Positions 16,545 to 61,448 of a DNA stretch of 64,000 nt are shown here, piece after piece (within the stretch, counting starts at the first letter, position 1; each line of letters opens with the position of its first letter). The DNA is taken from the NCBI GenBank assembly GCA_037043015.1, contig CM073329.1, positions 14,152,648-14,216,647 of the forward strand, read 5' to 3'. A program made the translations under genes and the position numbers. The notes below the pieces were generated by a model, which saw only the letters and a program-made list of their open reading frames with translations, was not told the DNA's origin and searched no databases. The stretch comes from Bryum argenteum (taxonomy: Eukaryota; Streptophyta; Bryopsida; Bryales; Bryaceae).

Positions 16545-16610
16545 TGGCCCTTTCACGAACTGCTTCACCCTCCACCCCACGTTTAACTGACAGTCTCCTA
16601 TCCAACTAGC

Positions 16611-32329: not shown

Positions 32330-33121
32330 TCATTCACTAGGCTGAGGGTTGGAGCATTCTCCAACAAGAAGTTTGCGCTTTGCACGAGTTCGATTGAATG
32401 GACCATCTGCATTTAAGATCAGATCTAAAACTCTAGAGTCTTTCAAGTCCTGCAAAGTCCTTCTTGTGAGGGGACTATGTACATCCAGTAAATAGTCTAG
32501 AGCTTGAGACTGGTATCGTGGCCCCCAAGTAGACTCAGCATATTGACACTCTTCCAAATCTTCCATGGAGGCACGACCTTCACCGTCGGTTACTCTCTTC
32601 CCATATTGATTCCATCGATGTCCCATTGGATGGGGCCCCCACTTGAATGTATTAGAGCTCACATCAAAATAGCCTCCAAGGCATTGGAAGAAGAACATCC
32701 GATTACCCTCATGCTGTGGACCGTGTCCGGCAAGTATTGGAGCAACTCTTAGAATCTTGTTTGGATCAGTCTCCCAATTCAATTGGGAGCTAGGAGTACT
32801 CTTCTCGAGATCATGTTCACCTCTACGCCAACTCCAAATAAGGTCTTTACCCCAGAATCGAACCTCGTCAGTAGTCTCAGCATTGTGTTCCCAAGAAGGC
32901 GGCATATAAGTTCTTAGATTGAACATCTCGTAGAACCGCTCGTGAAAAGGCGCTTTGCATATAGCACAACGACTTTGAGTCAAACAATGAACTAAAAGAC
33001 ACTGCGGATGATACATATGGGCACAAGAGCCTAAAGCCCATTCACCCTCAGGTCCAAATGGATTTAGGCATATGGGACACGTAGAGTGATCCAATACAAA
33101 CTGCGGAGGGTTGGGCCACAA
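32330..33121 (-). CDS. RING-H2 zinc-finger protein, probable E3 ubiquitin ligase
   Basis: A 263-residue frame. Residues about 15-60 carry STCPICLNPFG, LGSCAHMYHPQC and SRCAICKAPF: C-x2-C, C-x-H-x2-H, C, C-x2-C, a complete RING-H2 ligand set. The remainder has no recognised domain but is rich in Trp. RING-H2 proteins usually bring an E2 enzyme to a substrate; the substrate here is unknown. It lies about 200 bp downstream of EWCH-3 on the same strand. A frame between them (33282-33122) in another register could be its true N-terminal extension, so the start is uncertain. It is part of the cargo of the hAT-like element. Confidence 0.7.
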   Translation of the reverse strand: MWPNPPQFVLDHSTCPICLNPFGPEGEWALGSCAHMYHPQCLLVHCLTQSRCAICKAPFHERFYEMFNLRTYMPPSWEHNAETTDEVRFWGKDLIWSWRRGEHDLEKSTPSSQLNWETDPNKILRVAPILAGHGPQHEGNRMFFFQCLGGYFDVSSNTFKWGPHPMGHRWNQYGKRVTDGEGRASMEDLEECQYAESTWGPRYQSQALDYLLDVHSPLTRRTLQDLKDSRVLDLILNADGPFNRTRAKRKLLVGECSNPQPSE

Positions 33122-33318
33122 TAATGTCCGGATTCTACATCAACATGTGCCGACATGTGGTGTTTGAAATTCCACCCGGCCTTGCTCCAATCTACAACCT
33201 CTGTAGAAGTGTCATCTTGCATCTTGATGTCCATCATAGGAAGATTATCAAACAATGTATCCACACTCGGCCACGAGGTCATACCAAACGTTCACGACCG
33301 ACTTCACTAGTAAAATTC

Positions 33319-34436
33319 TTATCGATCTTCTCGGCTCGCCGCAACTTGTCTCCCTCTATCCACCGAAAGTATACATGCCACCTTCCAATGGTAGTAAGTG
33401 GCAGACAACTGCTCCAAACGGGCTTGCAATTGTTGCTTTTCCTTTAATAAGGAGTTGTATCCATCAGACGACATGAAAGGGGGATTACGAATAGGGGGGA
33501 ACAGCGGTAAAGATAAAGAATCTTGAGAATCACATCGTACATCTTCTTCTCGTTCGAGGCCCGACATATTAACAACACATGGCTGAGCTTTCACAGGACG
33601 GCGCAATGTAGGGCGTTGCGGTGACATTTCTCCAAATGCCAAGTCCTCTGTAAGGTTCATGACAACTCTATCAACATCCGCCATGTTAGGTTTCTCTACA
33701 TCTCCACGAATGTTACGTGCGTGAGATAGTTCTTGCATCTTCTCGCGCATGCGTGCATATTCCACGGAAAGCTGCTCCCCTTCTTTCACCTTCTCCTCAT
33801 ACATTGCTCGTGTTTTTTCGAGATCCGCTTCCAATCTTGCTATGACGTCGTCTTTACTCTTCAGAAGAGCTTTGAGATCAGAAGATGTGTCAAGTTCTTC
33901 CAATGGTAAGATGCAAGTACCATGGGGCTCTACTACGGGTGGATGATTACTTGCTATTGGAGGGCGAGAGCCACCTATTTCAGGAACGCGGCCAGGTAAA
34001 TTACGACGATGATCCGCATCAATCACAACGCTGGCGGGAGGAAGAGGTTGTCGAACTTGACGCACCGCCTTACGAGGCCGCGAACCATCCGAGTCATCGT
34101 CCTCTTCCGATGTAGCACTATGATAGGCAGCCTCTTCCATAGCCTTGGTAATAGACCTCATCACCGCCATGCCACCATTAGGAGCGTCAGGGAATCTTAG
34201 AATGCCTGTCGGAATGTCACTCGTTGAAGGTCGTGTTACATGCTTCCCCTCTTTGACAGTTGTCCAATCCACTTGTTTACCAAGAGCAACCTCGGCGTAT
34301 ACTCCACGAGCAAGAAACAATGGAACCTCGTTGCGCTCCACACATGGCATGCCATACAAGACTTGGTAAGCCTCAATGCATCGTTGCTTGAAGTTTGGGC
34401 ATTCGCAAAACTTAAGATTTGCCTTGTTGGTGCGCC
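33319..34436 (-). pseudogene. EWCH-3, 3-prime part, split off by MULE-1
   Basis: The frame enters from the MULE-1 boundary and reads TNKANLKFCECPNFKQRCIE, then VYAEVALGKQVDW and a PSTSDIP stretch shared with EWCH-1 (PTKQDIP), an acidic block, and a coiled-coil-like C-terminal half (LKSKDDVIARLEADLEKTR). The first exon lies 15.5 kb away at 49954-50186. Apart from the insertion the frame is open to 33319, with a possible frame change near 33380 before a better C terminus. Confidence 0.8.
34427..34436. repeat. Target-site duplication of MULE-1, left copy
   Basis: TTGGTGCGCC, repeated at 49954-49963. The direct repeat can be extended to 12 bp (TTGGTGCGCCGG), so the duplication is 9-12 bp, the MULE range. 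Joining the flanks through one copy keeps the EWCH-3 frame and gives the conserved FHRR-TNKANL region. Confidence 0.85.
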
Positions 34437-34484
34437 GGACGTTGCTACCGTGTGAGCATTGAGCGGTGAGCGGTGAGCGGTAAG
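34437..34484. repeat. Left terminal inverted repeat of MULE-1
   Basis: Contains GTGTGAGCATTGAGCGG followed by two more GTGAGCGG units and TAAG. About 35 of the innermost bases match the right repeat with one or two differences; the outer 14 are less similar. Confidence 0.9.
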
Positions 34485-34903
34485 ATTTAGAATTTTTAGG
34501 GCTGAGTTTGTATTTTTAGTAAAAACATTACTAAAAATAGATTTTTAAAAAAAATTGAGAATAATTTTCGAATATTCTCAAGAATATTCGAATATTCTAG
34601 ACTTATAACCGTGGATTTAGTGACCCAAACCCGTGGAAATAAGGCTTAAATTCCCTGAATTTATGAGACTTGAGCTACAAAACTGTACAGTAAATCACAA
34701 ATTTTTAAATGTCAAGAGGTTTCTAAGGTAATATTTCTAAGTGAATAGTACTCCGAGTTAGACAAATTGGCAAGGTCTGCTGTACATGTAGGTACTGGTA
34801 TAATAATTTTTAATAAGTTTGTGAAAAAATATCACATATAGTGTGGAGCACCCAATCATAAGACTAACACATAGCGTACGTAGATGAGGAGATATAAGGC
34901 ATT
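34485..34903. other. Subterminal AT-rich DNA of MULE-1
   Basis: No gene. Contains nested GAATATTC palindromes at about 34568-34595. Confidence 0.5.
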
Positions 34904-37900
34904 CTAATATGTAGCATGGTCTAGGATTCCTCCCTCCAGAATCTTTTTCACCTCGTTGAAACTAAGAGTGGCCGCGTGGATGAAGAAGTCAGCATCCGGA
35001 TTAGGTTTGCAAACCAATTTGCAAACCAATACTGTGATGTAGTATAGGTGCTTGCACGGTCGATATGGATCTCTCCTTCCTAACATAGAAATTGTTTTCT
35101 TGAACACTGGGCATGAGCAATCCGGGAATTTACTAATTGAAAGTCTATAAACTGCATCCGAATCCGACTCCAAGTCTACGATACATCCAAAACCAGGCTG
35201 CGGGATCATGGTCACTTTCAAAATTTTGGCCTGCATTGAGGTGGCAGACTCAATATTCTTCATGTGCTTTGAAGTCATAGCTGGAATGCGTTTCATGTTC
35301 TTCGATCTTCTTGACCTAGGGAACACGTCCGGCTTCTCCGGGACGGGAATATGGGACAAGTCTCTTGGTGGGGCAGCATTATTGAAAGTGCGGTTCGTAG
35401 GAAGCTGTTCTTTTTGTGGTAGTCGAAAGCCCGCATTCTCCAACGCCTCCATTTCATCACGTATAAGGTTAGTCCCTATCTTTACAGGCCATATTGAAGG
35501 AATAGGGGGTCTGTCCTGGCTTAGAGAGAACGGCTCAATCCACTTGCGACGATGACCCTTCACACACCTCTCAATATTATCTGCACAAAAAAAGAACTGA
35601 TCAATTTTTCTTGGCCCCTCTTGAGGGCGTTGCCATACTCCGGTGTAAGTTGGAGCTGCGGTCGCCTTCCCCTTCTGAATAATTCGTGAGTCACATCTTT
35701 TTTTACTCTTTCGCATGATACCCCAACATGCCTTGGCAGAATTCTCTCTCAAACGGGCAATGTGCCACAGCCTCTCGTCTACTTTAGTCTCCTGAACAGC
35801 GGTCACACGTTCAATACTAGGTCCAGCAAAAGTGGATGGTATTGTCGGTAGCTCTTCAACTTCATCCTCCTCATGGATAGTACTCAGATTTTCAGTACAA
35901 GCTCGGGTAACCCTTCTTCCAATTCGAGGACGTGAGTAGCTCAAGGTGTCAGGTCTGTGCGTTTCATCATCAGCTCCAATCGGAACATCAGCCTTACGTT
36001 TCTTGGATCCGAACACCTCGGCCCCCTCAAGGTGGGCGTCTCGGGTACAAATCTTTTCCGCTCCTGGATAGTCAGAAACTGCCTTTGTGAGGCTCGATGG
36101 ATCGCCGATCATTTGAGCTTTATGGGCAAGACGAAGTAAGAGTTCTTCGGATGTTGGTCCACTACCACCCTTGCCACCTCCGTTGAAGTCGCGGTAACCG
36201 ACAACTTGGAGGAAAGCACGAACATAATCATCAACAGCTGCAACGTACAAGTCCCCACCCTTGTTGCCGGACGCTTGCAACCATTTGTTATGGATAGATT
36301 CCGCAAGGTTACATGAAGGCATCTCCGCCAACTCCTCTGCTGAATATTTATTTTCCTGCAAGGTGCAAAGACAATTGACTTAGTAACAAAAAAAGATGAT
36401 CACAATATCCACAGCGGGTTAGACTTGCGTCACAGCAAGTCTGATCTAAAAATAGAATATTATTATTTTTTAAATGATTGATATTGAAAAAGATTAAGAA
36501 AGCAGAATATTCTATACTAAAAAAGTAAATATATTTTACGTAATTATTAGACATCAATTCACGTGTATATAATAGCTACGATGGATTGTGGACTCACCAA
36601 TTCCATGAAGCCACCCCACTGCCTATATCGGAAATGTCAGAATGCAAGCCAGTGTTCGAGGTGACCTAATCCAACTTCGGAGGTGGCTTGCGCCGACGCC
36701 CACCACGCTCGGATCGCCCAGTATTTTGTCTCCGCCTCAGCCATGGTGCGTGCATCTTTGTATTGCTTACAAAGATGTCGATGTTGATCCTGTAGTTCGT
36801 GCACGATGTATTGTTTGGTGTGTTTCTCTAGGGATTGCGTCCAATGGAAGTAGCAAGTCCGCTCGCGGCCTTCCATGGGCACTTTAGGGTCTCCGGAGCT
36901 ATAAATGATCCACACAGCGTTCCAGTTGGCTTGCGCACTGTCGGCCATGAACCCTTGAAACTGCGGCGCTTCCACTCCGTTCCTGCCCATGACGTGGTTA
37001 AGATTCTTCCAGAAGACGATTTGAGCATCCCCGTCTTCAGATTGGAAATCACAGCATGCAATAGTTAGAATGCGGCAGATTTTCGAGTCATAAACGTGGC
37101 ATGCCATGGTGGTCCAGTTCTTGACACGCTTGACGTGGTCGAACATCATCCAAGCATGTGACAAGTCGCCCCCGGGCTGCATACGACGAACAAGGTCAAC
37201 ACCGCTTCCGGGGTCGACCTCGGACATCTTGAAAATGAACACTTTGTCACTTTCATCTCCCTGGCCCGGGAACTGGTTACGTTGGATGTAAGCCCAGTTG
37301 CTGAGGCCTCGAAGCTTGGTGATCCCATCAAGAACACCGTATCTGCGCAAGTGCTTAAAAGTGGTAATACGATTCCTGACGCTGGGAGAGTTCAGCTCTT
37401 TACACTGATCGAAGATAGGTTCTAGCTCCTGGAGGGTGAGCTTAGAGGTTACAGGGTCACCTTCTTCACGGAGAAGTAAGTTTCCGAGTAAGTCCTTGCT
37501 AGCCTCCATGACTATTTTGGATGTGGTAGCTTGTGGGTTACGTTCTACGTGCTCCTCTATTAACTCATCAATCATTTTACGTGCACATCTGTAGTCTCCG
37601 ACCTTAACAGGATGTTCGTGCGTACCAATATGCACACATGCCCTCTCTTGACTCTCTTCTCCGAATACGTAGAAAATTTTAGCAGGGCATAAAGCAACAC
37701 AAATGGGAGGTTCTTTGCAGATCTTACAGACAAGTGATGACGAAGGAGGAGGCGCTTGGCCGACCGAGAAGGGGTCCTTGGTAAAGCCCTCAAAATCAAC
37801 CTCATTAACTTGTGATCTACGGTCAGGTCTTAGCAAGAATCCGCAGTTCCCATTGTGGCATTGAAGATGACCTACACAGTTAGAGTAGCGGAAAGACAAA

Positions 37901-38713
37901 CCGAGGTTGTTCTTGATGTTAGTAGTCATTGTCTGGTCCACACATGGCCGTCGTATCTTTTGTCCATCCCTTCCATAGATTTGGCTACCTTGGCGGCAGA
38001 GTTGGTAGAACGGGAGGGAGAATGTAGAGGACATCACCATTGAAAGTGTGAGGGGGAAAGAGACGCTATGAGTTCGGATGGAATGGAAATCTATTTTTTT
38101 GAGTATAGTTTTGTTGCGAGACATACTACCTAGTCTACGGAGCGAGAAAAAGAATGTTTTTGGGTTTTACGACTTTTGACACGGGAAGAGAAGCGGGGGT
38201 GGTTCTCGAGGCGTGTTGAGTAACCCGAGGAGGGAATAGGCGGTCGATGATATTCGACGGGACTGGATGGACGCTTTTCTTTCATCGTCGATGAATCAAA
38301 TATCGATTCGAACTTGAGTCGGGTTCGACCTTGACACGAGCGAGAACCGGAACAATTGTGGAGATGGTAGAAGAACTACGAGGAGTGAGGAGGACGGTGG
38401 AGGCGTTCATGACGGACTCTGTCAAGCCGAACAGTCGATACTGACTGGGCCGTAGCCTATACATTTTAGAGTTACTCTCTAAGGCGACTGGTTCGACAAG
38501 GACAGAGTAGTCGACAAGATTAGTGTTTGGATCCAAGACCTGATTCTCCAACCAGAGAGAGGACTCATCAAACCCGAAACGAACTGCTAGCCAAGACGGA
38601 GTGACTTCTGCCAACCCATCCACCCCCGGAGGAATGCAGAAGGGAGGACTTAAGTCTTCAGACCTAATGGCAATGACGTTTGCAGCGGGAGGCAGGGGAG
38701 CGGATGATGCCAT
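34904..38713 (-). pseudogene. MULE transposase with SWIM zinc finger (one nonsense codon)
   Basis: Three coding blocks on the minus strand: 38713-38282 (no recognised domain), about 38124-36598, and 36355-34904, the last two joined by an intron with donor TTG|GTGAGT and acceptor TTGCAG. Block 2 has GHLQCHNGNC and VCKICKEPPICVALC cysteine clusters, then the DDE region: TMACHVYDSKICR, and FMADSAQANWNAVW with the second D. Block 3 ends in a SWIM finger, CSCPVF....CKHLYYI (CxC..CxH). A TGA at 36637-36639 stands where a Trp codon would fit (HWLAF-stop-HFRYRQW), so this copy looks inactive. The connection of block 1 to block 2 is not clear. The enzyme would move MULE-1 by cutting at its inverted repeats. 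Confidence 0.8.
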
Positions 38714-38779
38714 GATAGACGAAGGCGAGAAAGAGAGCATCAACAAGCGCGCGGAGAAAGAGAGTCTTAGTTGTGTCAC

Positions 38780-39263
38780 GGAGGTTCAAATACGGGAAAT
38801 TAATGTAAGGTACATGCATACGTATTGCACACTTATTTGTCGTAATTTCATATAATACAACGTACAGATACTCGATACTTCTAATCGTGAGCATGATAAT
38901 TTGAAGCAAGTTGCTTAGGATACTTAAAATATCTCGACTGACACAATTGCATTAAGTACTTAGGATTATAAATATGAGATCCTTCGATAAAAATAAGTTG
39001 GTGCAGAAGGTAAAGTGACGGCGGCAGTCATTGTCAGATATTTAGTTGGATAATAGATACTTTCTAAATTAGTTTATTTTGGCAAGTCAGTCACCGTCAT
39101 AGCCGTATGTTAGGCAATCTGCGGCGGCTGATTAGGGTTTTTTAGCCGCAATTGGGGACCTTATGTAATGGAGTTGAAACTCATAGTTCGACCTCTTTAT
39201 TTGCAGTGAGACCTCTTGGACTCGTTTGGAAGAACGTGTAATAAGTTATCTCATTGCAAGCAA
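38780..39263. promoter_or_regulatory. Bidirectional promoter region between transposase and unknown gene
   Basis: The two genes diverge from this 0.5-kb interval. It is AT-rich and without further repeats; no certain TATA box was identified. Confidence 0.35.
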
Positions 39264-42200
39264 CATGGACGAAACTGCTAGCGGTAGTGAGAGAGGAAAG
39301 GAAATAGGTCAGAGAAAGAAGAAGAGGAGGGGTGGTACGAAGTTCACTAATTCTAAAGCACAGAGGCGTAGTGCTTTGCGGAAGCGCGACGGGATAAGCT
39401 CTAGCGGTGAATATCGAGAGCCAGACGGGTACGATCTCTTGATCGATGGTGATGTGCTACCGCCGTTTAGGCGGACTATTAAGATGCGATCGCTCAACCT
39501 CGACACTGTCCAGGAGAGTGTCGCGACGGACGAAGGCGAGAAGAAGAGGAGGATGAAGGGCGTATAGGGGCGATCAAAACGCCTAGTGAGGTTGTTTGCG
39601 TGGATGGGGACGACGATGGAGGTGTAGACTCTACATATGAGGTAATTAAGTTTTGTATGGTATAAACCCGCGGATATTTCTAAAGGTTAAATTATTTCTG
39701 AATATTTATATTGATTTATATCGACTTGTGATGTCTCCAGAGCCCCAAAGGATCGGAAGAGGAAGACAATCGATCAGGAGATGAATCAACGATGTTTGAG
39801 GAGAAAAGAGTCACTGACACTGGCGAGAGAGGAGAAGCTTCTTCTCATCCGAAAACAATGGATGATACAACGGATGGATTTGAGACAAGTGCTGAAGAAT
39901 TAGAGGAGGTACATGAAAAACCCTACTTCCTGGTTTACTAGGAGGACCTAGGGTGGATTAAGTATACAGTCAACAAGAGTTCATTTTTCAATATAAGTAG
40001 TTCTGAGTTTTGACATGATATAATTTCATGATTTGTATGGACCGGAGATTGAATAATATATATTATATTCATTTTTATCTTTGCAAATATTGTTTTGATA
40101 GTGGAATAAATCGTACTAATATGAAGTGCACTGACTGAGTTCGGTGATCAAAAAAACAGTCTCTAGTAATTTTAAAAATATCACGGAAAAAACAAATAAA
40201 TAGTCCTTACGAAGTAGGTTTAGTCAAGTTGCCGGGTAGGTACGGTCAAGGTTTAAAGAAACATGTAGGAATTATATTCGGCCCAAGTAGGATCCGGCTA
40301 ATCGGGTATGGGCCGGGTAGGAGCCAGGTTGGATAGTCCGGTTATCGAGCGGGTAGGATCCGGGTAGGAGTGGTCGGGTAGTCTTGGCCTTGGTAGGGAG
40401 GAGGTAGGGTAGCGTGCGGGTAGGGTCCGGGTAGGGGGTCCGGGTAGGATCCGGCACGAGGGTCCGGGTAGGAGCTTGCGGGGGCGCTTATCGGGTAGGT
40501 GGAATCCACGAGGTCGCCGTCTCCTCTTCGCCGCGCCGATGGCGGCCTGCTGCTCCATCGGGCCGTGTCCCCGCTGTTCTGTTGCTCGGTCTTTGTTCCA
40601 CTCCAGTGCCGTAGCCCCTCGGCCCGATGAATGTGCCGTCCCCTCCGGCGAACATCGGGGCGGCGGCGGGCGCTCGCTACGCCAGGCTTCAAGCCTCGGA
40701 TGCGGTCCTCGACATCGTGTTGTTGTTTTTTGCGGGAGAAAAGTGGACCGCAAATTGGTTGGTGATGGTGCAAACGGTGGAGAATAGGACAAACGGGATA
40801 AATTGACCCTAACTTTGGATTCCAATACGCCGGCGCAATAATTAGTTCCAAGTTGATAACGTAGTATTTTTAGCGATTGAGGATCTGTCTTTGACAAAAG
40901 CGATTCAAGATGGTTGTCGGTGTTGACTATGGAATGTGGACCTCATTTGAGAAGTTGATGAAACCAATGAAACAGTTGTGTTGAGCGCCGTGGTTGGATT
41001 ACTTGTGCATATTTCAAATTGAAGCAAGGAGGTGCTCATCTCGAAGAAGAAGGAGAAATGGCAGACATAGTCCAAGAACAGATGGGCCGGGTGCGTGCAG
41101 AGGAGGACGACATGCTGCGTGGAGAGGAGGGAGTCCCCAAGGATCAGAGAATGTGAGTTATCAATCTTCGGACTCAAGTTTCTTCTCTTCCATTTACAGG
41201 ACCGATCCGTATTGGGGCCAAGCAATCAAGCCTCCAGCCAAGGTTGAAAACATCAACTCCGAAAACATCAAGGTATGGAATTCTAATAAACCCTAATCAT
41301 TTGAAGTAGTTTCTCTGCCCATGCTCTGTTTGGCTTCCAGCTCGTGCTTGTTGTGAAGGAGGGCCCTCGAGGGTGCGCATGAAGCCCCCAGCTCCTGCTT
41401 GTTGGGAAGGAGGCCCTCGAGGGTGCGCATGAAGCCCACAGCTCGTGTTTGGCTGGTCACCATCCCGGTGATGAAGTCTGGCGATGAAGGAGCTCTGGCG
41501 ATGATGCCCAAGGCTGAGCCGGCCTTTTCCAGAGCCTGTGGGTCCTCGTGGTGAATGGTGTGCGCGGTTTTTTGTTTCGTGGAAGCAGAATTTGTCCTTA
41601 AAATGAAAAATGGTCCGACAAGCGTCAGACTTGCGTCGACGCAAGTCTGGACCGAATTCGTCACATTGGTTTTGAAAAAATTTTGCTCGCTCGGTTTCCG
41701 TTGAATGTCTTGCTTTGTTTGGCTTGAAGCTAACTGTGATGTGAACGACGGCCCTCGAGGGTGCGCATGTAGCCCCCATCTCCTACTTGTTGTGAAGGAG
41801 GCCCTCGAGGGTGCGAATTCAGCCCACAGCTCGTGCTTGTTGTGAAGGAGGCCCTCGAGGGTGCGCATGAAGCCCCCAGCTCCTGCTTGTTGGGAAGGAG
41901 GCCCTCGAGGGTGCGAATTCAGCCCACAGCTCGTGCTTGTTGTGAAGGAGGCCCTCGAGGGTGCGCATGAAGCCCCCAGCTCGTGCTTGTTGTGAAGGAG
42001 GCCCTCGAGGGTGCGCATCAAGCCCACCGCTCGTGCTTGGCTGGTCACCATCCCGGTGATGAAGTCTGGCGATGAAGGAGCTCTGGCGATGATGCCCAAG
42101 GCTGAGCCGGCCTTTTCCAGAGCCTGTGGGTCATCGTGATGAATGGTGTCCGGGGTTTTTTGTTTTATGCAAGCAGAATTTGTCCTTTAAATGAAAAATG

Positions 42201-44524
42201 GTCCGACAAGCGTCAGACTTGCGTCGACGCAAGTCTGGACCGAATTCGTCACATTGGTTTTGAAAAAAATTTGCTCCCTCGGTTTCCGTTGAATGTCTTG
42301 CTCTGTTTGGCCTGAAGCTTACTGTGTTGTGAACGAGGGCCCTCGAGGGTGGGCATGAACCCCCAGCTCCTGCTTGTTGTGAAGGAGGCCCTCGAGGGTG
42401 CGAATTCAGCCCACAGCTCGTGCTTGTTGTGAAGGAGGCCCTCGAGGGTGCGCATCAAGCCCACCGCTCGTGCTTGGCTGGTTACCATCCCGGTGATGAA
42501 GTCTGGCGATGAAGGAGCTCTGGCGATGATGCCCAAGGCTGAGCCGGCCTTTTCCAGAGCCTGTGGGTCATCGTGATGAATGGTGTCCGGGGTTTTTTGT
42601 TTTCTGCAAGCAGAATTTGTCCTTTAAATGAAAAATGGTCCGACAAGCGTCAGACTTGCGTCGACGCAAGTCTGGACCGAATTCGTCACATTGGTTTTGA
42701 AAAAATTTTGCTCCCTCGGTTTCCGTTGAATGTCTTGCTCTATTTGGCTTGAAGCTAATTGTGTTGTGAACGAGGGCCCTCGAGGGTGGGCATGAAGCCC
42801 CCAGCTCCTCCTTGTTGTGAAGGAGGCCCTCGAGGGTGCGAATTCAGCCCACAGCTCGTGCTTGTTGTGAAGGAGGCCCTCGAGGGTGCGCATGAAGCCC
42901 CCAGCTCCTGCTTGTTGGGAAGGAGGCCCTCGAGGGTGCGAATTCAGCCCACAGCTCGTGCTTGTTGTGAAGGAGGCCCTCGAGGGTGCGCATGAAGCCC
43001 CCAGCTCCTGCTTGTTGGGAAGGAGGCCCTCGAGGGTGCGCCTGAAGCCCACAGCTCGTGTTTGGCTGGTCACCATCCCGGTGATGAAGTCTGGCGATGA
43101 AGGAGCTCTGGCGATGATGCCCAAGGCTGAGCCGGCCTTTTCCAGAGCCTGTGGGTCCTCGTGATGAATGGTGTGCGCGGTTTTTTGTTTCGTGGAAGCA
43201 GAATTTGTCCTTAAAATGAAAAATGGTCCGACAAGCGTCAGACTTGCGTCGACGCAAGTCTGGACCGAATTCGTCACATTGGTTTTGAAAAAATTTTGCT
43301 CGCTCGGTTTCCGTTGAATGTCTTGCTCTGTTTGGCTTGAAGCTAACTGTGATGTGAACGAGGGCCCTCGAGGGTGGGCATGAACCCCCAGCTCCTGCTT
43401 GTTGTGAAGGAGGCCCTCGAGGGTGCGAATTCAGCCCACAGCTCGTGCTTGTTGTGAAGGAGGCCCTCGAGGGTGCGAATTCAGCCCACAGGTCGTGCTA
43501 GTTGTGAAGGAGCCCCTCGAGGGTGCGCATGAAGCCCCCAGCTCCCAACTCCTGCTTGTTGGGAAGGAGGCCCTCGAGGGTGCGCATGAAGCCCACAGCT
43601 CGTGCTTGGCTGGTCACCATCCCGGTGATGAAGTCTGGCGATGAAGGAGCTCTGGCGATGATGCCCAAGGCTGAGCCGGCCTTTTCCAGAGCCTGTGGGT
43701 CCTCGTGGTGAATGGTGTGCGCGGTTTTTTGTTTTGTGCAAGCAGAATTTGTTCTTAAAATGAAAAATGGTCCGACAAGCGTCAGACTTGCGTCGACGCA
43801 AGTCTGGACCGAATTCGTCACATTGGTTTTGAAAAAATTTTGCTCCCTCGGTTTCCGTTGAATGTCTTGCTCTGTTTGGCTTGAAGCTAACTGTGTTGTG
43901 AACGAGGGCCCTCGAGGGTGCGCATGAAGCCCCCAGCTCCTGCTTGGCTGGTCACCATCGTTGGTGATGAAGATCTGGCGATGAGGCAATTGGGTGAGCC
44001 TGTGTTTTTTACTGCATGTGGGGGTCCTCGTCTTGAATGGCTGTGAGTGATTTGTCTCAATGTTTCATGGCAGAATATGAAATAGGATGTGAATTATTTA
44101 TTCATGTGTATACTTTATGAGACAAACGTATATTGTTTTATTTGTTTTATCTTTTAAAATGATGTTTTTTGTTGTTCAGGATTTGATTATTAAGTTGGCG
44201 GTGATTTTGCAGGATCCTATCAAGCGACTTGTGCTTCATCCGGATGAGGAATCTGATGCAGATAGTGACCTCTCTGTTTTGAGAGAGAATGTGTTGGCTT
44301 ACGTTGAGTCCCGTCGATTAGTAATAGCATGTTCGTCAGTTCCGGAAATTCCACCTCCTTCCTCATCTGTCCGTCACACTTCGCGAGTTGACGTTGATCG
44401 ATTAGCAGTTCACATGGGCATAAAAAATAATGAGGCCAAGGCCCTTCGTATTCAGGCAAAACAATTTGCTAGACTTGCACCTAGACGTTCTCCGCGACTT
44501 GCCGCAAAAATGCATCAGCCTTAG
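39264..44524 (+). CDS. Unknown multi-exon gene of MULE-1 with a minisatellite intron
   Basis: Exon-like blocks with good borders: 39264-39641 (donor GAG|GTAATT), 39741-39908 (acceptor CTCCAG), about 41028-41152 (donor AT|GTGAGT), 41200-41272 (acceptor TTACAG, donor AAG|GTATGG) and 44213-44524 (acceptor TTGCAG). Exon 1 is Lys/Arg-rich (GQRKKKRRGG, KAQRRSALRKR); later parts are acidic; the last exon ends in RLAPRRSPRLAAKMHQP. Exon 1 shows a stop at 39565-39567, in a frame different from that leading to its donor, so a frameshift is likely. The link between 39908 and 41028 is uncertain, and two genes are possible. I recognise no domain. Low-complexity charged composition suggests a nuclear protein (inference). 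Confidence 0.4.
40255..40500. repeat. Short GC-rich repeats of GGGTAGGATCCGG
   Basis: About ten degenerate copies of CGGGTAGG-TCCGG in an intron of the unknown gene, followed by GC-rich DNA to about 40740. No coding pattern is supported. Confidence 0.6.
41330..43990. repeat. Higher-order minisatellite inside an intron of MULE-1
   Basis: Two levels of repetition. The short unit is about 51 bp with GGAGGCCCTCGAGGGTGCG and the CCCTCGAGGG palindrome. Runs of these alternate with a block of about 270 bp (CTGGTCACCATCCCGGTGATG onward), seen near 41453, 42038, 42476, 43064 and 43609. Each block ends with the perfect palindrome GACTTGCGTCGACGCAAGTC. Since 51 is a multiple of three, long frames remain open on the minus strand, but their text is only the repeat. 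Confidence 0.9.
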
Positions 44525-44664
44525 TATTTTTGGAACATTATATGATACGTTTATCATATTCTAATTTACAACAAGATTATGTATTCATTTTTATTTAATC
44601 TTGTTCAGTTCACACTATTTTATGCTTATTGTGATGTGTTGAATTTGGTTTACTGATTTGCCAG

Positions 44665-47600
44665 ATGAACATAGCTCAAGTCCAAGATGACGGAGCCAAC
44701 CTGCCTCATCTTAATGCTCTCCAAATTGTACCGTCCAACGAGAATGACCTCATTTTAGAAGAGTTGGGAAGTGGAGTTCCACATAACAGCCCTTTGGAAA
44801 GTGATCGCCAACCTGTGGAGGGCGATTGCAATGCGGTTTCAAGTGACAATCCTCCGAAGCGCGAGATATTCATCAAGCAACTGAAGACAATGATGCGCAC
44901 CAATCCCTCTCGGAAGACGAAGAATCTACATTGCCTGAAGGTGTCAACGTGGGCATCAGTCACATGCCCACCCATCTTCAGAACAAGGACCCCGACTGGA
45001 GTGCAAACGAGATGCGAATGCTCCACAAGAGTGATTCGATTGCTATCATTAACAGGTTACGCTACAAACCTGTTAAGAAGTCTCGTATGCTAATTCCACT
45101 CTGCCGCCTCGTTTGTTATCCGAAGGTTCGCCCGATCTCAGAACAAGACGTCAGGAAACTCGAGAACGAGTTCAACAAGGGATACCGCGAAGGCGATCGG
45201 GTAATGTACGTGTCTCCCTTCGACAGGAAAGGCCGAGAGAAAATTGTTGACACTGAAGATGAACTTTGGAAAAACCCGCTTTGGGCAGCCGCGAATGAGG
45301 AGTTCGAGAGTACGCTGCGGTCTGATCCAGATCTTCGTAACCTTAGTGACAAATATTTCTATGTCTACGAAGGTAACCACCGTGTTACAGCCTGGATGCG
45401 CCATATAGAGAGGTACCACAAGAATGATCCCTCGTGGTACATTTCGGTTGATTGCATCGTCCTCGATGCCCGTGGAGAGAGCAATCTCCTCCTCGATGCT
45501 ATGAACGATATTAACTGGTAAGCGAATGTCGCATTTTTAAGAATTTGTTCCTTTTATGATATTGTCATCTTTAAATTATCTCATCCTTCGTCATATGTTG
45601 TAGGTCTACTGAACATGATCACGTCGAAGACAGTTTGTGTGCGAAACTCCAACGCATGAGGAAGTTTGGAAAGTTGAAACTTGAAGATTTCAAGGACCTC
45701 ATTTCTCCAGAAGATTACAGGATCTGTAAGAACGCCAAAGCAAAAAGAGAGACTTGGTATCCTGTCACAATAGACGTATTTGTAAAGTTTCTATACGCGG
45801 TAAGCTCACTACATATGTGCTCGACTCCTCTTCTCCAATTTGATTTAAAACAAATTCTCATTTGTGTTCTGGTTGTTATTCAGAGGAGGTTAGCGAAAAA
45901 ATCTGACGATGCTGAGGCTGCGTACTACGCCGCGGTTCCAAAAGATAAACAAACTGGACCGGGAGTATGGAGTGCCATGGATAACGCTATTAAGGCTGAA
46001 ATCAAATTAATTCGTGGCAAAAATTTCGACAAGATGGTGGCTGTGGCCAATATCAAACTCGGGAAGGTTTTTGCGAAAGAAATATTGGTCGTTTGGTTCT
46101 TTGATTTCTAAACTGTATCTTTTTATACGTTCTGTTCCTCCAATCAACACTATGGGTCTGATGTGCAGATTAACTCTCATTACAGCCAAAACCTAAAACC
46201 CGACATGACGCTTGATCGCTTACACATGGTCGCCACTACGAATGTGCACTTCGATTTCAAGGCAAAGTGGCTGCAGTGGTGGAACTCATCAAACGACGAT
46301 CGACGATCATTTCGCTTCCCTGAAGATCGCCCTATGAAAGATAAAGCTTTGCTTTCATTTCTTCATCGTGCTTCTCTTTGGGCACAGGTAACTTGGATTT
46401 TTGTTCCGTCATTACAGAATTTGAGTTTATATGTTACTTGAAATATTAACTGGTTTCCTGTATTCTCAGCTTGAGCAATCACTAGAAAGTGAATTGCAGA
46501 ATCTTATAGACGACGAGAACCTCAACATTGAGTGGTCTAGTGTTGTCCTAAAGCCATCTGAGTATGTCGAGAAGTGGAGGCTACTCTTATGGGAGAAGGC
46601 ATTCGGAATCTATCTTGCTCCGAATGCAAGTCCGAAGTTCATTAAAGGCTCGGATCTTCGAAAAATTACTGGAGGCAAAGCTACAATTAAGCGGCTTGTA
46701 TTCCGGTATGTATTCCTTTTCTTATATAATATTATAGAACATTGTTCAACGTAATCAATTTTCCCTATCTAATTTGTTTACTTCCTTGTAGGTACTTAAA
46801 ACAAGAGCTCGTTGCCAAGGGAGCATTACCTTCGTTCTCCATTCCCATGGAATTCGAGGACGTCGCTGTAACGAATGATCCCCGCAGCTTTTTCTCCTCA
46901 GCCCAACAATAACGGTTTACTAACTCCCAATTGTCGACCGGTGGATGGTTCCTTGAGTGCCACGACAACTACGTCCACAAGGAGGAGAAGCATCTTCTTC
47001 GAAATCTGGCTACAAACCCAGCTGACTCAGCACCGATGGAGATTGACGACGAGGACGATGACGACTTGTCCATTTCACCAGATGCACCAGATCCAATCTC
47101 CTCTCCTTCGTCACCAGTTGCAGTGCCCAAGTCTCGTGCAACCGGGAAGCGACGCATAATCTTTTTTGCGGAACCCGTAGTCGATCTCGAGCAAGAATCG
47201 GAAGAAAGCGCTCCCCTCCCGGATGACATTGCAGGGCCAGAAGATGCTGATCTGACTCAGGCTTCAGAGGGAGTGACAAACAATGCAAATCGTCGCAATG
47301 CAAGACTGACTCAGCTTTCGACAGGTGAACTTACGAATGCAGGGTCCCCTCCTCAATCGTTCACCGTGGACCACAACTCACGCTAGATCTCGCGTCGCAT
47401 CGGCCCGACCATTGTTTCAAACGCCTCTTCCGAAACCCAATCACATTGGTAGCGGCTCGTCGTCAAAAATTTCGGTGACTTTGCCAATGTATCTCGAGAA
47501 GGGCAACATTGGAGACTTGGTTCATCGATCGTCAAGATCGCAAAATGGGATTCGCAAATCCTCGATATCGTTGAGCACATCAAGAAGGTATTGTTTCATA

Positions 47601-48981
47601 CATTTGTCATTTATATTTTCCATATGTAAGTTGAGTACTTGTGAATCTAGTAGCCAGTATCTAAATTTTCACTTCTATCTCAGATTGGCAAAGAACGTAA
47701 GTACCGTGTGTTCGCGATGGAGTATGAACCCAAGCATCCAGGAATTGATCTCATTTTTGCAGATGCCCGAAAACTTGCCTGTTCCGGGTGTGTCTCCAAC
47801 AGAAATTCCATCCTGGAATCGGCGTGACAAAACCTACTTTGAGAGCCTCTTCGTGTTTGCCGCTTATCATTTGACGGACGTTGGAGCCATACTTCTCATG
47901 CATCCAAAATGTCGTAGAATCGAGCGTACTCTCGATTCTCGAGTCCGCAACATATGGTTTTAAATGCAGTTCGAGACCGGTGGGGATATAATCCCCTTCC
48001 TATGGCCTCTACCGTACCCAAACCGAAAAGAGTACGTAATGATTCCAATTTTAAATTTCACGATTCATGATTATTTCTGACTATGCTTCTATGTTAACGT
48101 ATTTTTACTTGTGTTTTGCAGACTCACTGCTTCCACATCAAAGTCTATGTTCGTAAAGAGTATGTTTCGAAGTTCCAGACTCGGCAAGTGGCACACGCAT
48201 ACGGAGGTGTGGCAATCGTATCTGATGAGGAAGACCACCTCTGTAACTTTGCAGAGAAAGAAACATTACGTTATCGTCCGGACGGTACGCCCTGGCGTGG
48301 CTCACGAGAGAAGGACCCCTCCTTCATTCAGTGTTTCGTCGATTGTCTCACGGACGACGGAGGTATAGTCTTCGATTGGAGCGCTAGTACAGGTAATGTT
48401 TCCGTAAACACTACATTCGAGTTCGTTTATACACACTTCGCTTTTCTAACGTGGGCTTCTGTATTTGTAGGTGCATCTGTAATTGCTTGCGCGCGCTCCA
48501 ACCGACACCTCATCGCCATAGAACCTGACGAAGAAATCTTTGATGGTGTGCTAGCCGATTACAAGAATGGTCCTCCCGGTGATGAAGAAAGTGGAGAATC
48601 TGCCCCTCCCGCGGATTATGACTCTGACGAACCGGTCGTGAAGAAGCCACGAAAGTTCATTGGTGCGTAATTCCATCTTGTGTTCTTTTTCTCGATTTTT
48701 TATTTAGCACTTACAAATCTGTTGAACTGACTTTCTTTGCAATTTTAGGATCGCAGGTCTGAAGGAGCGATTGACTCGCAACGCTCATCTCTACAAGAGC
48801 CCTCCATCAAAATTCACCCTACCATCATGACGAGCGACTTGCTCAAGAGTTTGTTCAAGCTCCATCTCCCATTCTCTCGGACACTCCACGTCGACGTTAT
48901 AACAATAGTGTGCTTAAGTTTATAGACTTTGAGGCTGATCAGTGTGATCAGCACTTTAATGGTTCAACACCTTCTGCCTAG
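44665..48981 (+). pseudogene. ParB-like plus beta-class DNA methyltransferase-like gene, copy 2 (MULE-1), damaged
   Basis: Intron positions mostly match copy 1 (first exon 44665-45517, next 45604-45799, then from 45884); copy 2 has at least one extra intron, in the middle region. The first exon has KSRMLIPLCRL and FYVYEGNHRVTAWM, the ParB-like core, with SVDCIVLDARG after it, the point where copy 1 has a stop. The middle region ends in SLWAQ like copy 1 (TFWAQ), followed by an acidic linker. GIDLIFAD at about 47740-47763 is the motif IV position, but the frame changes there. YRPDGTPWRG, FIQCFVDCLTDDGGIVFDWSAS (motif I region) and ASVIACARSNRHLIAIEPD complete the catalytic fold. DPPY is not visible and the first Gly of motif I is Ser. 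A TAA at 46910-46912 and frame changes near 44880 and 47760 break the gene. Function is inferred; a binding or anti-silencing role is as possible as methylation. Confidence 0.6.
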
Positions 48982-49891
48982 AGTGTGATTTGTTTTCTGA
49001 TAGGTACTAGACATGGTACTAGAGTATTCGTTTATCTCGATCTATTACTGCTATAGCATGTATTTGTGTTTTTCAATATATATGGTTTTATATATTTATT
49101 TATTGTGATTATCGTTTATAGCTTAAGCTACACTAAGTGTTTCAAGTATTAATTTAAGTATCTCACTACAATGTAATCTAAAGCCATGCTTGACTGTAAC
49201 GAAGACGTCAGCCCTAATTTTGATGTAACTTCTTAAACTCCAGTTTCGATGCACCGGTGTATGTAAATGCTTAAGTTCTAAACTAAATGCAGACCAAAAG
49301 TTTGAGAAGGTCTTTTTTTATTTCCATTGGAGTGATTGAATTTTGCCAATGTTGGTAGGGGCTATAGTCCAGTATTTGTATAGCTCATGATAGCTGATTT
49401 AAGACGCAGTGCAACGCTCAAACGAGGCCGAGGAGAATCGAACTCGGACCACTGCAATGCCACGTGAATGTCTTTTCGTACACCTTACAAGGGGACACGG
49501 AAAGACGACGTGTCTTGATAATTTTCAGTTAATATATGCCGAAGCATTTACATATAATTCTTACAAGTGCAATACGCTATTGATGACGTCAGCCCTAATT
49601 AGTCTCTAAAGCTTACTGTCGATAAATTAAACTTATTGATTACCTAAATGGATCATCCCTAATTTCGGTTTATATTTTGGATATGATTTGAATTGTGTTG
49701 GTTACACATGATGATGCTAGTCCATAATTTAATTAACTTTTATTTAAACTTACAAGTGTGGATAATTTTTGAAATATTGTATGACCTATGTCCACGGTTT
49801 TGGGTACTTTTATGCCTAAAAATGACCATTTCAAAAATTCTAAACCACCCATTCCATGGTAATAGGGCCATTAACTTTAATTTTTTTTTTC
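48982..49891. other. Subterminal DNA of MULE-1 with a tRNA-like segment
   Basis: On the minus strand 49405-49470 reads CCGAGTTCGATTCTCCTCGG, a polymerase III B-box-like T arm, similar to the tandem repeats at 14674-16080. GACGTCAGCCCTAATT occurs at 49205 and 49584. No gene. Confidence 0.5.
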
Positions 49892-49953
49892 CTTACCGCT
49901 GAAACTTTACCGCTCACCGCTCACCGCTCAACGCTCACACCGGTGGTTTCCCC
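49892..49953. repeat. Right terminal inverted repeat of MULE-1
   Basis: Reads TTACCGCTCACCGCTCACCG then CTCAACGCTCACACCGG and TTTCCCC at the tip; complement of the left repeat. The duplication TTGGTGCGCC follows. Confidence 0.9.
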
Positions 49954-50186
49954 TTGGTGCGCCGGTGAAAATGGTGACAAGACAGAGGGAATTTCTTGTC
50001 AATGTGACACCATTCAATGAACGATTCGCAAGTGGCCATCGTCCACATATCTGGTTCATCTTCCCAACCTCTGAAGGCAAGCTTATTTGGATTTAGAAGC
50101 ACGTGTAATCTTTTCTGTTGTGGAGCGCCCTTCCTCTTCCTCTTCTTGTCGTTTTCTTCCTTCCGAAGTTGCCCGAGAGTAGCCAT
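49954..50186 (-). pseudogene. EWCH-3, 5-prime part, split off by MULE-1
   Basis: ATG at 50186 (MATLGQLRKEENDKKRKRKG), then LAFRGWEDE, FIEWCHIDKKFPLSCHHFHRR up to the MULE-1 boundary. It aligns with the starts of EWCH-1 and EWCH-2. In its own leader the sequence GCGCGTTGTCTTACATC (50253-50269, minus strand) corresponds to the conserved leader of the other members. Confidence 0.8.
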
Positions 50187-50325: not shown

Positions 50326-50642
50326 GGGCGACCAGAAATCCAAGGCGACCGGCGGTCCAGATAGAGGTATCACGTTGCGTGGCGACCGCCGGTCCAGTGA
50401 GAGCGCGACCGCCGGTGCAGCTAATCGCGACAGCGGGAGGCAGGGCGACCGCCGATGCAGCTGTTCGCGACAGCGGGACGTAGGGCGACCGCCGGTGCAG
50501 CTGTTCGCGACAGCGGGACGCAGGGCGACCGCCGGTCCAGCTGTCGCGACTGCGGGACGTAGGGCGACCGCCGGTGCAGCTGTCGCGACAGCGGGACCTG
50601 GGGCAACCGCCGGTGGGCGACTGTAGGGCGACCGCCGGTCTC
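50326..50642. promoter_or_regulatory. Dyad cluster 6 in the divergent promoter of EWCH-3 and the kinase
   Basis: About ten copies of GCGACCGCCGGTGCAG or GCGACCGCCGGTCCAG, spaced about 40 bp, several separated by CTGTTCGCGACAGCGGGACG. It fills the space between two divergent TATA boxes, so it could serve both genes. Confidence 0.8.
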
Positions 50643-50834: not shown

Positions 50835-52386
50835 ATGAGTAAATCCAAAAAGCACGGGAAGGGACAACGAGCATGGGATCTGGATGCCCCCGAAACATTT
50901 GCACCAGACCTTGGTATGCAACAACCTAGTGGAAGTGGAGGCCATAAGAGGAAGAGGAGACACCCAAAAGAAGAAAGACCCGGATTCCCAACAACAGATT
51001 ATACTAAGTTTGCGGAAAAAGCATGCATGGATTGGTATGAGGAAACGGAGGCTCAATTCCTAGAGCACAACTACCTCAGGAATGTTAGCACGGGCAAAGA
51101 GAGACTGAAGAAGAAATTGGCGGCCGTAATTTTGAAGGCCATGGAGGAAACGGATAAATACCAAGATGTGGATTATCATTCGCAGATGCAGCGTTGTGGA
51201 TGGATAATACTGATTGAACAATGCATCTTCAATGTAAAGGAGTTGTGGAAGAAGCGATTTGGAACGAGGCGTCTAACACAAGAGGAGGACCAGTTTAAAC
51301 GCAAGATGGATTGGTGGCAACACACAATCCAAAAGCTTAGCAAGAATAAAACCCGAGGGAAGTCATGGGAAAAAACCGCTTTGCTCGCCACATTTGAACG
51401 AGACACAGGGTCGGGGGTGGTGTGGATTCCTCAAGACGCTACGATAGAAGCTCTATCAGGCCGCAATATGGAGGGAGGCCATGGACTGGTGCGGAAGGTG
51501 AAGATACTTGGAGTAGACCACGTTCCAGAAAATGTCGAGTTTAAAGAAAGCTTTCCAAGAATATGAATCTTGAGAAGAGGAGGATAGAGACTAGCGCAGA
51601 AGCTCTTGTATGTCCTTTGAATCATCCAGGAATTATCAAGTTTTGGGCGTTGCATACAAGGACATTCGAAGCTTACTCATATTGGTGGAATGGGGGATCA
51701 CTACACGAGATGTTGAAGTTGGATGAGAAGGTCGGGGACAAACATCTTCACTGGTCGAAAGTGAAGGAAGTTCCGAGTCTCACTCCAGAGGAGGCTTTCA
51801 GAATTAGCCTTTTCCGTCAGCACATGATGAAGTTAGCTTGGGGTTTAGTGTACATCATGAATCTCGTGCATAAGACAAAAGTTCTTCACAACGACCTATC
51901 CCCCTCGAACATACTGTTGCATTTCCCAACTTTCGGAGGAACCAAGATTTGTATTGGACTGTGTGACTGGGGGATGGCATCTCGTATAGTAGAACAACAG
52001 CCTTCACGTTACGAATACCAGACGACGCCAAAAAAAAAGAAGATATGACACGTCGATGGTGGGTGGCGCCCGAGTTGTTCTATACTTATGGACCTGAAGG
52101 TTCTGATACAAATTTGAACGTCCAGGAACTTCGACATCCAACCACGGTAGCATCAGATTCGTATGCGGTTGGCAAGCTCATCCAGCTGATTGGTGTGCAT
52201 AACGAATTCGACGAAGAATTATTACCGAATTCGACGGTGCGAGATTCATTCCTAACGAAAGTGTTTTCAATGACCAGGCATGAATTAAATGAGAGAATGA
52301 CCTGTGCGGAGGTGGTGAACCACTTGATGGCGAAACCATATCATATGCTTCCACCGGAGCTTGTATTTAGAGAGGACAGTTATTAG
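50835..52386 (+). pseudogene. Divergent protein kinase, three frames
   Basis: Three consecutive frames make one kinase. The first (50835-51566) has a Lys-rich N-terminal extension and ends with a Gly-rich loop (MEGGHGLVRKVKI) and VEFKE. The second (from about 51563) holds the alpha-C region, HPGIIKFWAL, a hinge with WWNGGSLHEML, the catalytic loop VLHNDLSPSNILL (HND for HRD; Asp and Asn kept) and LCDWGMAS (DWG for DFG). The third (52045-52386) gives RRWWVAPEL (APE motif), ASDSYAVGKLIQL and the final helices. Frame changes lie near 51555 and in an A-run at about 52029-52040. The key Asp residues remain, so the ancestor may have been active. Sequence error at the A-run is possible. I cannot name a subfamily. 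Confidence 0.7.
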
Positions 52387-55159: not shown

Positions 55160-55991
55160 ATGGCAATGAGAACCGTGTCGGTTGTGTGGAGCTTGTGGCT
55201 CTTACTTTTTGTGGTAGGAGCACTTGCTCGTAGCTTAGTTGATAATGCGGTTCGGAGAAGGTTGAGCGTGCAAAGAAGACCGTGGGGCAAGAACAACGAC
55301 GACCGACCGCCAAAGAAGCCCAAGTTGATATTTGATGGGCCCGCACCACCTTGGCTCAAGAAAGAAGAGCGTCTGGCGCCGTTGAACGATGACCGTCCGC
55401 CCGAAGAAGCCGAAGTTGATCCTTGATGAGTCCGTAGCGCCGCTCAATGATGACCGACCGCCAAAGAAGCCCAAGTTGATTCTTGATGAGTTTGTGGTGC
55501 CGCTCAATGATGACCGACCGCCAAAGAAGCCCAAGTTGATTCTTGATGGAGTGCGTGGTGCCGCTCAACGATGACCGACCGCCAAAGAAGCCCAAGTTGA
55601 TTCTTAATAAGTCTATGGTGCCGCTCAACGATGACCGACCGCCTAAGAAGCCCAAGTTGATTCTTGATGAATCCGCATTGCCGCTCAACGATGATCGACC
55701 GCCGAAGAAGCCTAAGTTGATTCTTGATGAGTCGGCGGTGCCGCTCAACGACGACCGACCGCCGAAGAAGCCGAAGTTGATTCTTGATGAGTCTGTGGTG
55801 CCGTTGAACGACGACCGACCGCCAAAGAAGCCTAAGTTGATTTTGGATGAGTCGTGGTGCCAATGAACAACGATCGACCGCCTAAGAAGCCTAAGTTGAT
55901 TCTTGATGAGTCCGCGGTGCTGCTCAACGACGACCGACCGCCAAAGAAGCCCAAGTTGATCTTTGATGAGGCCGCACCACTAAGGGGTTAA
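55160..55991 (+). pseudogene. Secreted 20-residue-repeat protein, copy B (several frameshifts)
   Basis: Same gene as 60618-61448. Single-base losses or gains occur near 55253 (GGTTCGG for GGTTCCGG), 55274, 55400, 55550 and 55853. The signal peptide is intact, but the frame closes at 55426. All repeats are still recognisable at DNA level. The number of small indels is high compared with the otherwise near-identical copies. Confidence 0.8.
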
Positions 55992-60617: not shown

Positions 60618-61448
60618 ATGGCAATGAGAACCGTGTCGGTTGTGTGGAGCTTGTGGCTCTTACTTTTTGTGGTAGGAGCACTTGCTCGTAGCTTAGTTGA
60701 TAATGCGGTTCCGGAGAAGGTTGAGCGTGCAGCAGCACCGTGGGGCAAGAACAACGACGACCGACCGCCAAAGAAGCCCAAGTTGATATTTGATGGGCCC
60801 GCACCACCTTGGCTCAAGAAAGAGGAGCGTACAGCGCCGTTGAACGATGACCGTCCGCCGAAGAAGCCGAAGTTGATCCTTGATGAGTCCGTAGCGCCGC
60901 TCAATGATGACCGACCGCCAAAGAAGCCCAAGTTGATTCTTGATGAGTTTGTGGTGCCGCTCAATGATGACCGACCGCCAAAGAAGCCCAAGTTGATTCT
61001 TGATGGGTCTGTGGTGCCGCTCAACGATGACCGACCGCCAAAGAAGCCCAAGTTGATTCTTAATAAGTCTATGGTGCCGCTCAACGATGACCGACCGCCT
61101 AAGAAGCCCAAGTTGATTCTTGATGAATCCGCATTGCCGCTCAACGATGATCGACCGCCGAAGAAGCCTAAGTTGATTCTTGATGAGTCGGCGGTGCCGC
61201 TCAACGACGACCGACCGCCGAAGAAGCCGAAGTTGATTCTTGATGAGTCTGTGGTGCCGTTGAACGACGACCGACCGCCAAAGAAGCCTAAGTTGATTTT
61301 GGATGAGTCTGTGGTGCCAATGAACAACGATCGACCGCCTAAGAAGCCTAAGTTGATTCTTGATGAGTCCGCGGTGCTGCTCAACGACGACCGACCGCCA
61401 AAGAAGCCCAAGTTGATCTTTGATGAGGCCGCACCACTAAGGGGTTAA
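60618..61448 (+). CDS. Secreted protein with eleven 20-residue repeats, intact
   Basis: The 276-residue product starts at the ATG at 60618, just after the splice acceptor. An in-frame start 45 bases upstream lies in the intron. Residues 1-25 form a signal peptide (MAMRTVSVVWSLWLLLFVVG then ALA-RS). After a short spacer come eleven repeats of DDRPPKKPKLILDESVVPLN with small changes; the first is followed by a different linker (PAPPWLKKEER). No cysteines or membrane segments follow the signal. Two explanations fit: a Pro/Lys-rich extracellular structural protein, or a precursor cut into many similar peptides; the PPKKP and acidic/basic alternation suit either. I do not recognise the family. It is one of three tandem copies and the only one with an open frame. 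Confidence 0.85.
   Translation: MAMRTVSVVWSLWLLLFVVGALARSLVDNAVPEKVERAAAPWGKNNDDRPPKKPKLIFDGPAPPWLKKEERTAPLNDDRPPKKPKLILDESVAPLNDDRPPKKPKLILDEFVVPLNDDRPPKKPKLILDGSVVPLNDDRPPKKPKLILNKSMVPLNDDRPPKKPKLILDESALPLNDDRPPKKPKLILDESAVPLNDDRPPKKPKLILDESVVPLNDDRPPKKPKLILDESVVPMNNDRPPKKPKLILDESAVLLNDDRPPKKPKLIFDEAAPLRG

Follow-up and report, generated by a model that had tools for sequence, protein, structure and literature searches.

A stretch of 64,000 nucleotides from the moss Bryum argenteum (the window, C9:14152648-14216647 in the surveyed assembly of 258.8 Mb and 25 contigs) carries two decayed copies of a gene in which a ParB-like domain is joined to a methyltransferase-like domain. One copy, belonging to what we call family 2, lies at 44665-48981 on the plus strand inside a transposon of 15.5 kb resembling Mutator-like elements (MULEs); the other, belonging to family 1, lies at 7954-12141 on the same strand, and both were found where the first-pass annotation had put them. 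The gene is under purifying selection, and arrays of palindromes are present and conserved beside it. With a probability of roughly 55%, we regard it as an accessory gene of MULE-like elements, providing a self-marking or anti-silencing module whose ParB-like part would dock on palindromes of its own element.

The family-2 transposon extends from 34437 to 49953, as delimited by its left terminus GGACGTTGCTACCGTGTGAGC and right terminus GCTCACACCGGTGGTTTCCCC, by terminus counts and by comparison of flanks, and it is bordered by the target-site duplication (TSD) TTGGTGCGCC at 34427-34436 on the left and 49954-49963 on the right. At the right end (...CACCGGTGGTTTCCCC at 49953), similarity stops in 19 of 20 loci and the flanks differ, locus L012 being without the last few bases. 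Genome-wide, the 25-mer of the right terminus revealed 130 + 118 = 248 matches with up to two mismatches, and the 27-mer of the left terminus 136 + 130 = 266 with up to three, while the backwards control of each gave none. End pairing covered the listed ends on contigs C1-C3, with right ends exact and left ends carrying at most one mismatch; for 41 of the 83 right ends listed, a correctly oriented left end from the list lies at a distance of 3-30 kb. An exact TSD of 10 bp (11 bp in one case) was seen in the window and in seven of ten other paired elements, two further elements showing one mismatch and one showing no duplication. As a control, 11 mismatched end pairings were inspected, two of which had an 8-bp word in common and nine no word of 7 bp or longer. 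On the same three contigs, 36 of 84 listed methyltransferase-exon matches are followed 0.5-4 kb downstream by an exact right end on the same strand, and none of the 84 by one on the other strand. A gene occurring only in the host and never with MULE ends, the case that the first-pass annotation had named as contrary to its proposal, is thus not what was observed, as right ends and TSDs were found at gene copies.

MULEs are characterized by terminal inverted repeats and TSDs of 8-11 bp; the termini of family-2 elements are related inverted repeats, and their 10-bp TSD falls within this range. The label rests on termini and TSD length, because no Pfam transposase model matched any of the five transposase pieces, in which SWIM-like and DD motifs were recognized by eye only. 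In the window, the transposase gene (34904-38785, minus strand) consists of three pieces of open reading frame (ORF) at 34904-36379, 36637-38166 and 38282-38785, with a SWIM-like CSC...CKH and a D/D/CxFHW pattern, and is opposite in strand to the ParB-methyltransferase gene. Between both lies a second plus-strand gene for a basic protein (39187-44524; ORFs 39187-39567, 44093-44524 and others).

Splice sites of the family-2 gene were placed from an alignment of 21 copies, namely the window copy and 20 of 40 scored places. They define ten exons (44665-45517, 45604-45799, 45884-46081, 46169-46387, 46470-46705, 46792-47587, 47684-48031, 48122-48392, 48471-48662 and 48757-48981), with coordinates read in the window and lengths agreeing with the alignment. 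Under this model, L024 and L027, two of the 20 fetched copies, encode an uninterrupted protein of 1170 amino acids; the frame of L023 is also open, but one of its acceptors is non-AG. The window copy itself contains 32 stop codons in its spliced reading. The start codon is uncertain, since L027 has no ATG at the start proposed by the first-pass annotation. As that annotation had noticed, the two window copies share most intron positions: read by eye, six of the nine family-2 introns have the same place and phase in family 1, a seventh lies nearby in a different phase, and two are absent from family 1.

The only named relatives were three hypothetical proteins from Ceratodon purpureus, which are predictions by others and cover 72-73% of the query at 52-55% identity (E 9.7e-265 to 2.8e-241); their alignment starts at exon 3 and continues to the end, and the ParB part is missing. 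An AlphaFold model of one of them (P0001) from a 10-row alignment reached a pLDDT of 34, and unprocessed pieces of the window yielded no useful match to Pfam. ParB-exon proteins from assemblies in ENA (P0026-P0037, contigs up to 675 kb) are similar to one another, and judging from these the gene is present in further, probably eukaryotic genomes.

Three genome searches yielded 433, 1324 and 1559 initial candidates, from which the best 40, 150 and 150, respectively, were scored. Of the 40 places scored for family 1, five stood at 98-100% and the other 35 at 81-83%; 31 of the 40 listed matches are concentrated on C1 (44.1 Mb), the longest contig seen. In L033 (1300-5400), a family-1 gene is interrupted by an apparent gypsy-type retrotransposon with gag/pol-like frames seen by eye. 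The family-1 element ends on the right at about 16546 with the terminus CACGCACCGTAGCAATCC (16520-16546), where homology with the deletion derivative L031 stops and whose motif is also found in L031; a left end was not found for this element. This terminus resembles the left end of the family-2 element in the window, though the pattern is weak on its own (three matches with up to two mismatches against 1.5 expected). The earlier placement of each gene copy near the right end of a MULE with related termini consequently holds for the family-2 copy, where 34437 pairs with 49953 and a 10-bp TSD is present, and less so for the family-1 copy, which is 4.4 kb from its right end and has only this weak terminus likeness. 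Between the family-1 gene and the right end, an ORF region on the minus strand (12685-13353) may be a further accessory gene. Family 3, found via a Pfam search of the genome, is represented by L035, L036 and one incomplete copy; its transposase shows homology to the family-2 one (29-68% at the amino acid level, depending on the piece) and is located left of the ParB-methyltransferase gene on the opposite strand. The domains of the three families are 27-38% identical.

Selection was assessed in seven family-2 copies (21 pairs) picked as open or little broken, although L013 among them has 19 stops, more than some of the copies passed over; codons with stops or gaps were removed. The mean ratio of nonsynonymous to synonymous substitution rates (dN/dS) was 0.11 for the ParB part, 0.09 for the middle, 0.21 for the methyltransferase-like part and 0.55 for the N-terminal 85 residues, and 0.21 overall. 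Chance capture of a host or bacterial gene that is carried along passively, as in Pack-MULEs, has in its favour that MULEs frequently capture genes, as PMC6446971 also states. Yet the same fusion recurs in three divergent families, its C-terminal part is present in Ceratodon, and copy numbers are large; given this recurrence and the purifying selection, we reject passive capture, which is scarcely credible. CpG depletion as a mark of escape from methylation was likewise dropped, as the observed/expected ratio was 0.98-1.15 for the family-2 gene in 20 copies, 0.95 for an ordinary stretch of the window and 0.74 for families 1 and 3.

The ParB-like domain spans 45078-45517, with EGNHR at 45369-45383. 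An AlphaFold model of 44847-45518 had a pLDDT of 78, and comparison by VIA-align placed a ParB fold at model residues 78-224. GxxR is the nucleotide-site motif of the ParB/Srx superfamily; it is present as EGNHR in 21 of 21 aligned family-2 copies, bearing out the GNHR-type motif reported earlier, and as DGNHR in families 1 and 3. The Pfam family ParB_N (PF02195) had no match in this genome, with the control matching 10 of 14, and was absent from the families matched by a 26-member alignment of ParB-like sequences, nine members of which matched the PHROG ParB-like profile (best 0.0027). We speak of a ParB-like fold and not of ParB because of the missing ParB_N match, a miss that is compatible with the fold.

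The methyltransferase-like domain is encoded by exons 7-9 (47684-48560), motif IV (DAPE) coming first and motif I (WSASTG) last. CcrM aligned in one stretch with a motif-IV-like before a motif-I-like sequence (circular order), by which the beta-class order suggested in the first-pass annotation is real; both fold assignments hold, the ParB one by model comparison and this one by profile and CcrM alignment. PF01555, the profile of beta-class N4C/N6A methyltransferases, was matched by all four members of one alignment at E up to 10 (best 4.3e-5); family 3 gave a near full-length match with 32.0 bits, above the cut-off of 26.7, and a family-2 member stayed below it with 16.5 bits. The catalytic consensus of motif IV is [DNS]PP[YFW]. 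Among the 21 aligned family-2 copies, 19 have DAPE, one DAPK and one a gap, and none a DPPY-like form; family 1 reads DYPD, and DTPF of family 3 comes nearest to the consensus. As families 1 and 2 depart from the consensus, we call their domain methyltransferase-like and consider DNA modification by it doubtful on the strength of these motifs. It has probably lost or changed its catalysis, acting as a DNA- or cofactor-binding module, and the rare family 3 may still methylate.

An active methyltransferase, by which N6-methyladenine or N4-methylcytosine itself and not a protein cover would counter silencing, is suggested by family 3, with its profile match and DTPF, and by the similar algal transposon proteins that PMC12477816 interprets in this way. 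We judge it improbable given DAPE and DYPD in the other two families and the purifying selection on a degenerate motif, which in the abundant families points to a role that is non-canonical or does not involve catalysis. Phage methylases covering most of the family-3 domain are 21-22% identical to it. Methyltransferase and ParB profiles gave 72 and 132 pattern matches in viral contigs, with no confirmed relative, and the 119 pattern matches in prokaryote contigs included a single relative, a Treponema methylase whose 322-aa ORF was read as lacking a ParB part.

The family-2 gene in the window is preceded by a tandem-repeat array (41337-43946) of 50-bp and ~437-bp units, in which the palindrome CAGACTTGCGTCGACGCAAGTCTG occurs five times (41626-41649, 42214-42237, 42651-42674, 43239-43262 and 43783-43806), and not once in shuffles. 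Our attention to palindromes was post hoc, having arisen from inspection of such arrays. A second palindrome, CCCTCGAGGG, in the 50-bp units was not counted, being no better than in shuffled units (p about 0.2-0.4). Genome-wide, CAGACTTGCGTCGACGCAAGTCTG has 189 exact copies against none for the backwards control. The 50 sites listed for the initial 32.6 Mb of C1 fall into 21 clusters; at least 10 of these have a listed exon or element end no farther than 12 kb away (8.5% for random positions). The exact 20-bp core is present in 14 of 20 family-2 loci; L013 carries seven near-copies, L021 one with three mismatches, and L012, L014, L020 and L025 none. The core is lengthened in several subfamilies into perfect palindromes, which reach 58 bp and differ in their outer letters. 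Covariation of the arms was tested on 28 hand-picked sites (26 distinct) holding the exact core, so that core invariance is by choice and only the arms constitute the test. Fourteen of 30 pairs changed on both sides against 9.5 after shuffling (reached in 2 of 500 shuffles), and 38 arm cells changed together against 20.2 (0 of 500), counts that are inflated by kinship of the copies; the score was 0.156 against 0.055-0.073 with the partner slid, one slide reaching 31 cells.

The other families display palindromes of their own. Upstream of the family-1 copy in the window, GTCGGGCNCCCGAC forms an array at 6734-7673 with six exact sites (6734, 6902, 7081, 7167, 7407 and 7660), 0.3-1.2 kb from the gene, and 13 strand-matches with up to one mismatch against 0.05 expected. 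An extended form of GTCGGGCNCCCGAC has 31 exact matches in the genome, every one upstream of a copy among the five most similar in family 1 (98-100% alike), which is the only one of these proximity results free of post hoc choice. With one mismatch allowed, 66 of 73 matches have a listed ParB exon no more than 6 kb away, against 0.3% at random, and ten of these 66 are situated on the opposite side of the gene; the other seven have no listed gene inside this distance; the exon list used here joined all 40 of one listing with 21 of 150 of another, four of which had been noticed beside motif matches. Two more distant family-1 copies have only looser GTCGGGCNCCCGAC variants upstream. In family 3, TACTTGGGCATCCCAAGTA occurs within a 21-bp repeat downstream of the gene; it also forms arrays elsewhere in the genome, such as the mixed-orientation arrays at C2:9953831-9954155 and C8:15695891-15696215, which have no adjoining ParB match among the matches listed.

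A ParB-like domain, purifying selection and family-specific arrays beside the gene together give the look expected of ParB-parS-like self-recognition, and the arrays raise the likelihood of a role directed specifically at the element. We infer docking, spreading, any methylation and the anti-silencing effect as follows. The ParB-like domain would dock as a dimer on the palindromes of its own element, possibly spreading outward in the fashion of ParB, which would bring the methyltransferase-like domain onto the element's own DNA. The element, marked or covered in this way, or its transposase promoter, would be shielded against silencing by the host, an effect that VANC achieves for VANDAL elements by different means. 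In a narrower form, which we hold tentatively, each transposon family would possess a self-contained ParB-parS system, its own clamp coevolving with a matching array and spreading a methyltransferase-derived domain against silencing.

Several observations weigh against this self-marking role. The palindromes lie between divergently transcribed transposase and ParB genes, both in the window (41.6-43.8 kb) and in the diverged L062 (ParB gene at 72-78% protein identity), where the 24-mer is unchanged; some arm changes are of the G-U type; and tandem arrays outside both elements (30222-30366 and 50405-50615) also contain short palindromes, CGGTCGCTAGGGCGACCG and GCTGTCGCGACAGC, calling for caution. 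The palindromes might accordingly be read by the transposase or a host factor as a bidirectional promoter, or form hairpins or cruciforms, with the fusion protein working elsewhere, for example in replication or repair of the excised element. We consider this rather unlikely, as invariant core letters in the 28 sites (chosen for the core) and 189 exact 24-mers exceed what a hairpin requires, families 1 and 3 have different palindromes, and motif clusters flank the gene on both sides in some family-1 relatives, contrary to a promoter element alone. Very improbable, too, is a ParB-like domain serving as a sequence-nonspecific nickase or NTPase in transposition or replication: a Bacillus ParB-methylase fusion does nick nonspecifically, according to PMC5512222, but conserved palindrome arrays point to specific recognition. 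The question is open to experiment, since the fold is recognizable, the 24-bp palindrome is defined and some copies are intact, and the degenerate catalytic motif would raise that of whether methyltransferase domains serve as passive modules.

The remainder of the window contains a gypsy-type long terminal repeat retrotransposon remnant recognized by eye (1-2450; CpG observed/expected 0.52), a minus-strand transposase-like ORF (21621-23072) with a C-terminal region which we take by eye to be hAT-like, and a RING-finger-like ORF with a cysteine pattern seen by eye (32330-33139, minus strand) just beyond the left end of the family-2 element. Protein-kinase-like ORF pieces, showing LHNDLSPSNILL by eye, lie at 51545-52386 on the plus strand. 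Three arrays (17305-17840, 55374-55974 and 60836-61427) each consist of about 9-10 copies of one 60-bp coding-like repeat (GCCGCTCAACGATGACCGACCGCC...) with long ORFs on both strands.

Compared with ParB-parS and with Noc, KorB and PadC, the moss gene has a similar N-terminal fold, GxxR and palindromic target-like arrays nearby, but no ParB_N match, other palindrome sequences and a eukaryotic transposon as its setting. Should the ParB part load onto the palindromes, transposons of land plants would have put a bacterial partition mechanism to new use in self-recognition. Bacterial and phage ParB-adenine methylase fusions (Bce_0392, PMC5512222) likewise unite both domains in one protein, and bdelloid N4CMT (PMC8885841) is likewise a bacterial-type amino-methyltransferase acting in a eukaryote. 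Unlike N4CMT, the gene described here rides on a transposon and is fused to ParB. Sequence-specific escape of transposons from host silencing is little known beyond the VANDALs of Arabidopsis. According to PMC5735166, VANC binds short motifs amassed as tandem repeats in introns and upstream of its own VANDAL element, which resembles our case in combining a MULE accessory gene with short repeated target motifs in the element. The reported VANC motifs (e.g., YAGTATTAY) are not palindromes, and the moss fusion has bacterial-type domains. Plants thus offer a functional precedent for the layout, built, as far as described, from other components.

The closest counterpart is the ParB-methyltransferase accessory gene of the Ectocarpus transposon Sola1-1_Ec32, reported together with similar green and red algal transposon proteins in PMC12477816. 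The claim that such a gene had not been described in plants therefore stands for land plants, as judged from open-licence literature, and fails in its wider sense, the same kind of gene being present in this transposon of a brown alga, with citations for green and red ones. Searches of the open-licence literature listed no land-plant report, though Iyer 2011 and Petroll 2025, both cited by PMC12477816, may mention bryophytes. Compared by description, both genes combine a ParB-like and an N4/N6 methyltransferase domain in one protein (1104 versus 1170 amino acids) and, in Ectocarpus as in our families 2 and 3, lie opposite the transposase strand in a giant DNA transposon. They differ in that ours belongs to a moss and to MULE-like elements with 10-bp TSDs and not to Sola1, reaches large copy numbers, has a motif IV that is degenerate in its abundant families, and is accompanied by palindrome arrays in cis, the string "palindrom" being absent from the main text of PMC12477816. 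New among these systems, as far as seen, are the occurrence in a land plant and in a MULE-like carrier, the number of copies, the degeneracy of the catalytic motif and the arrays of palindromes.

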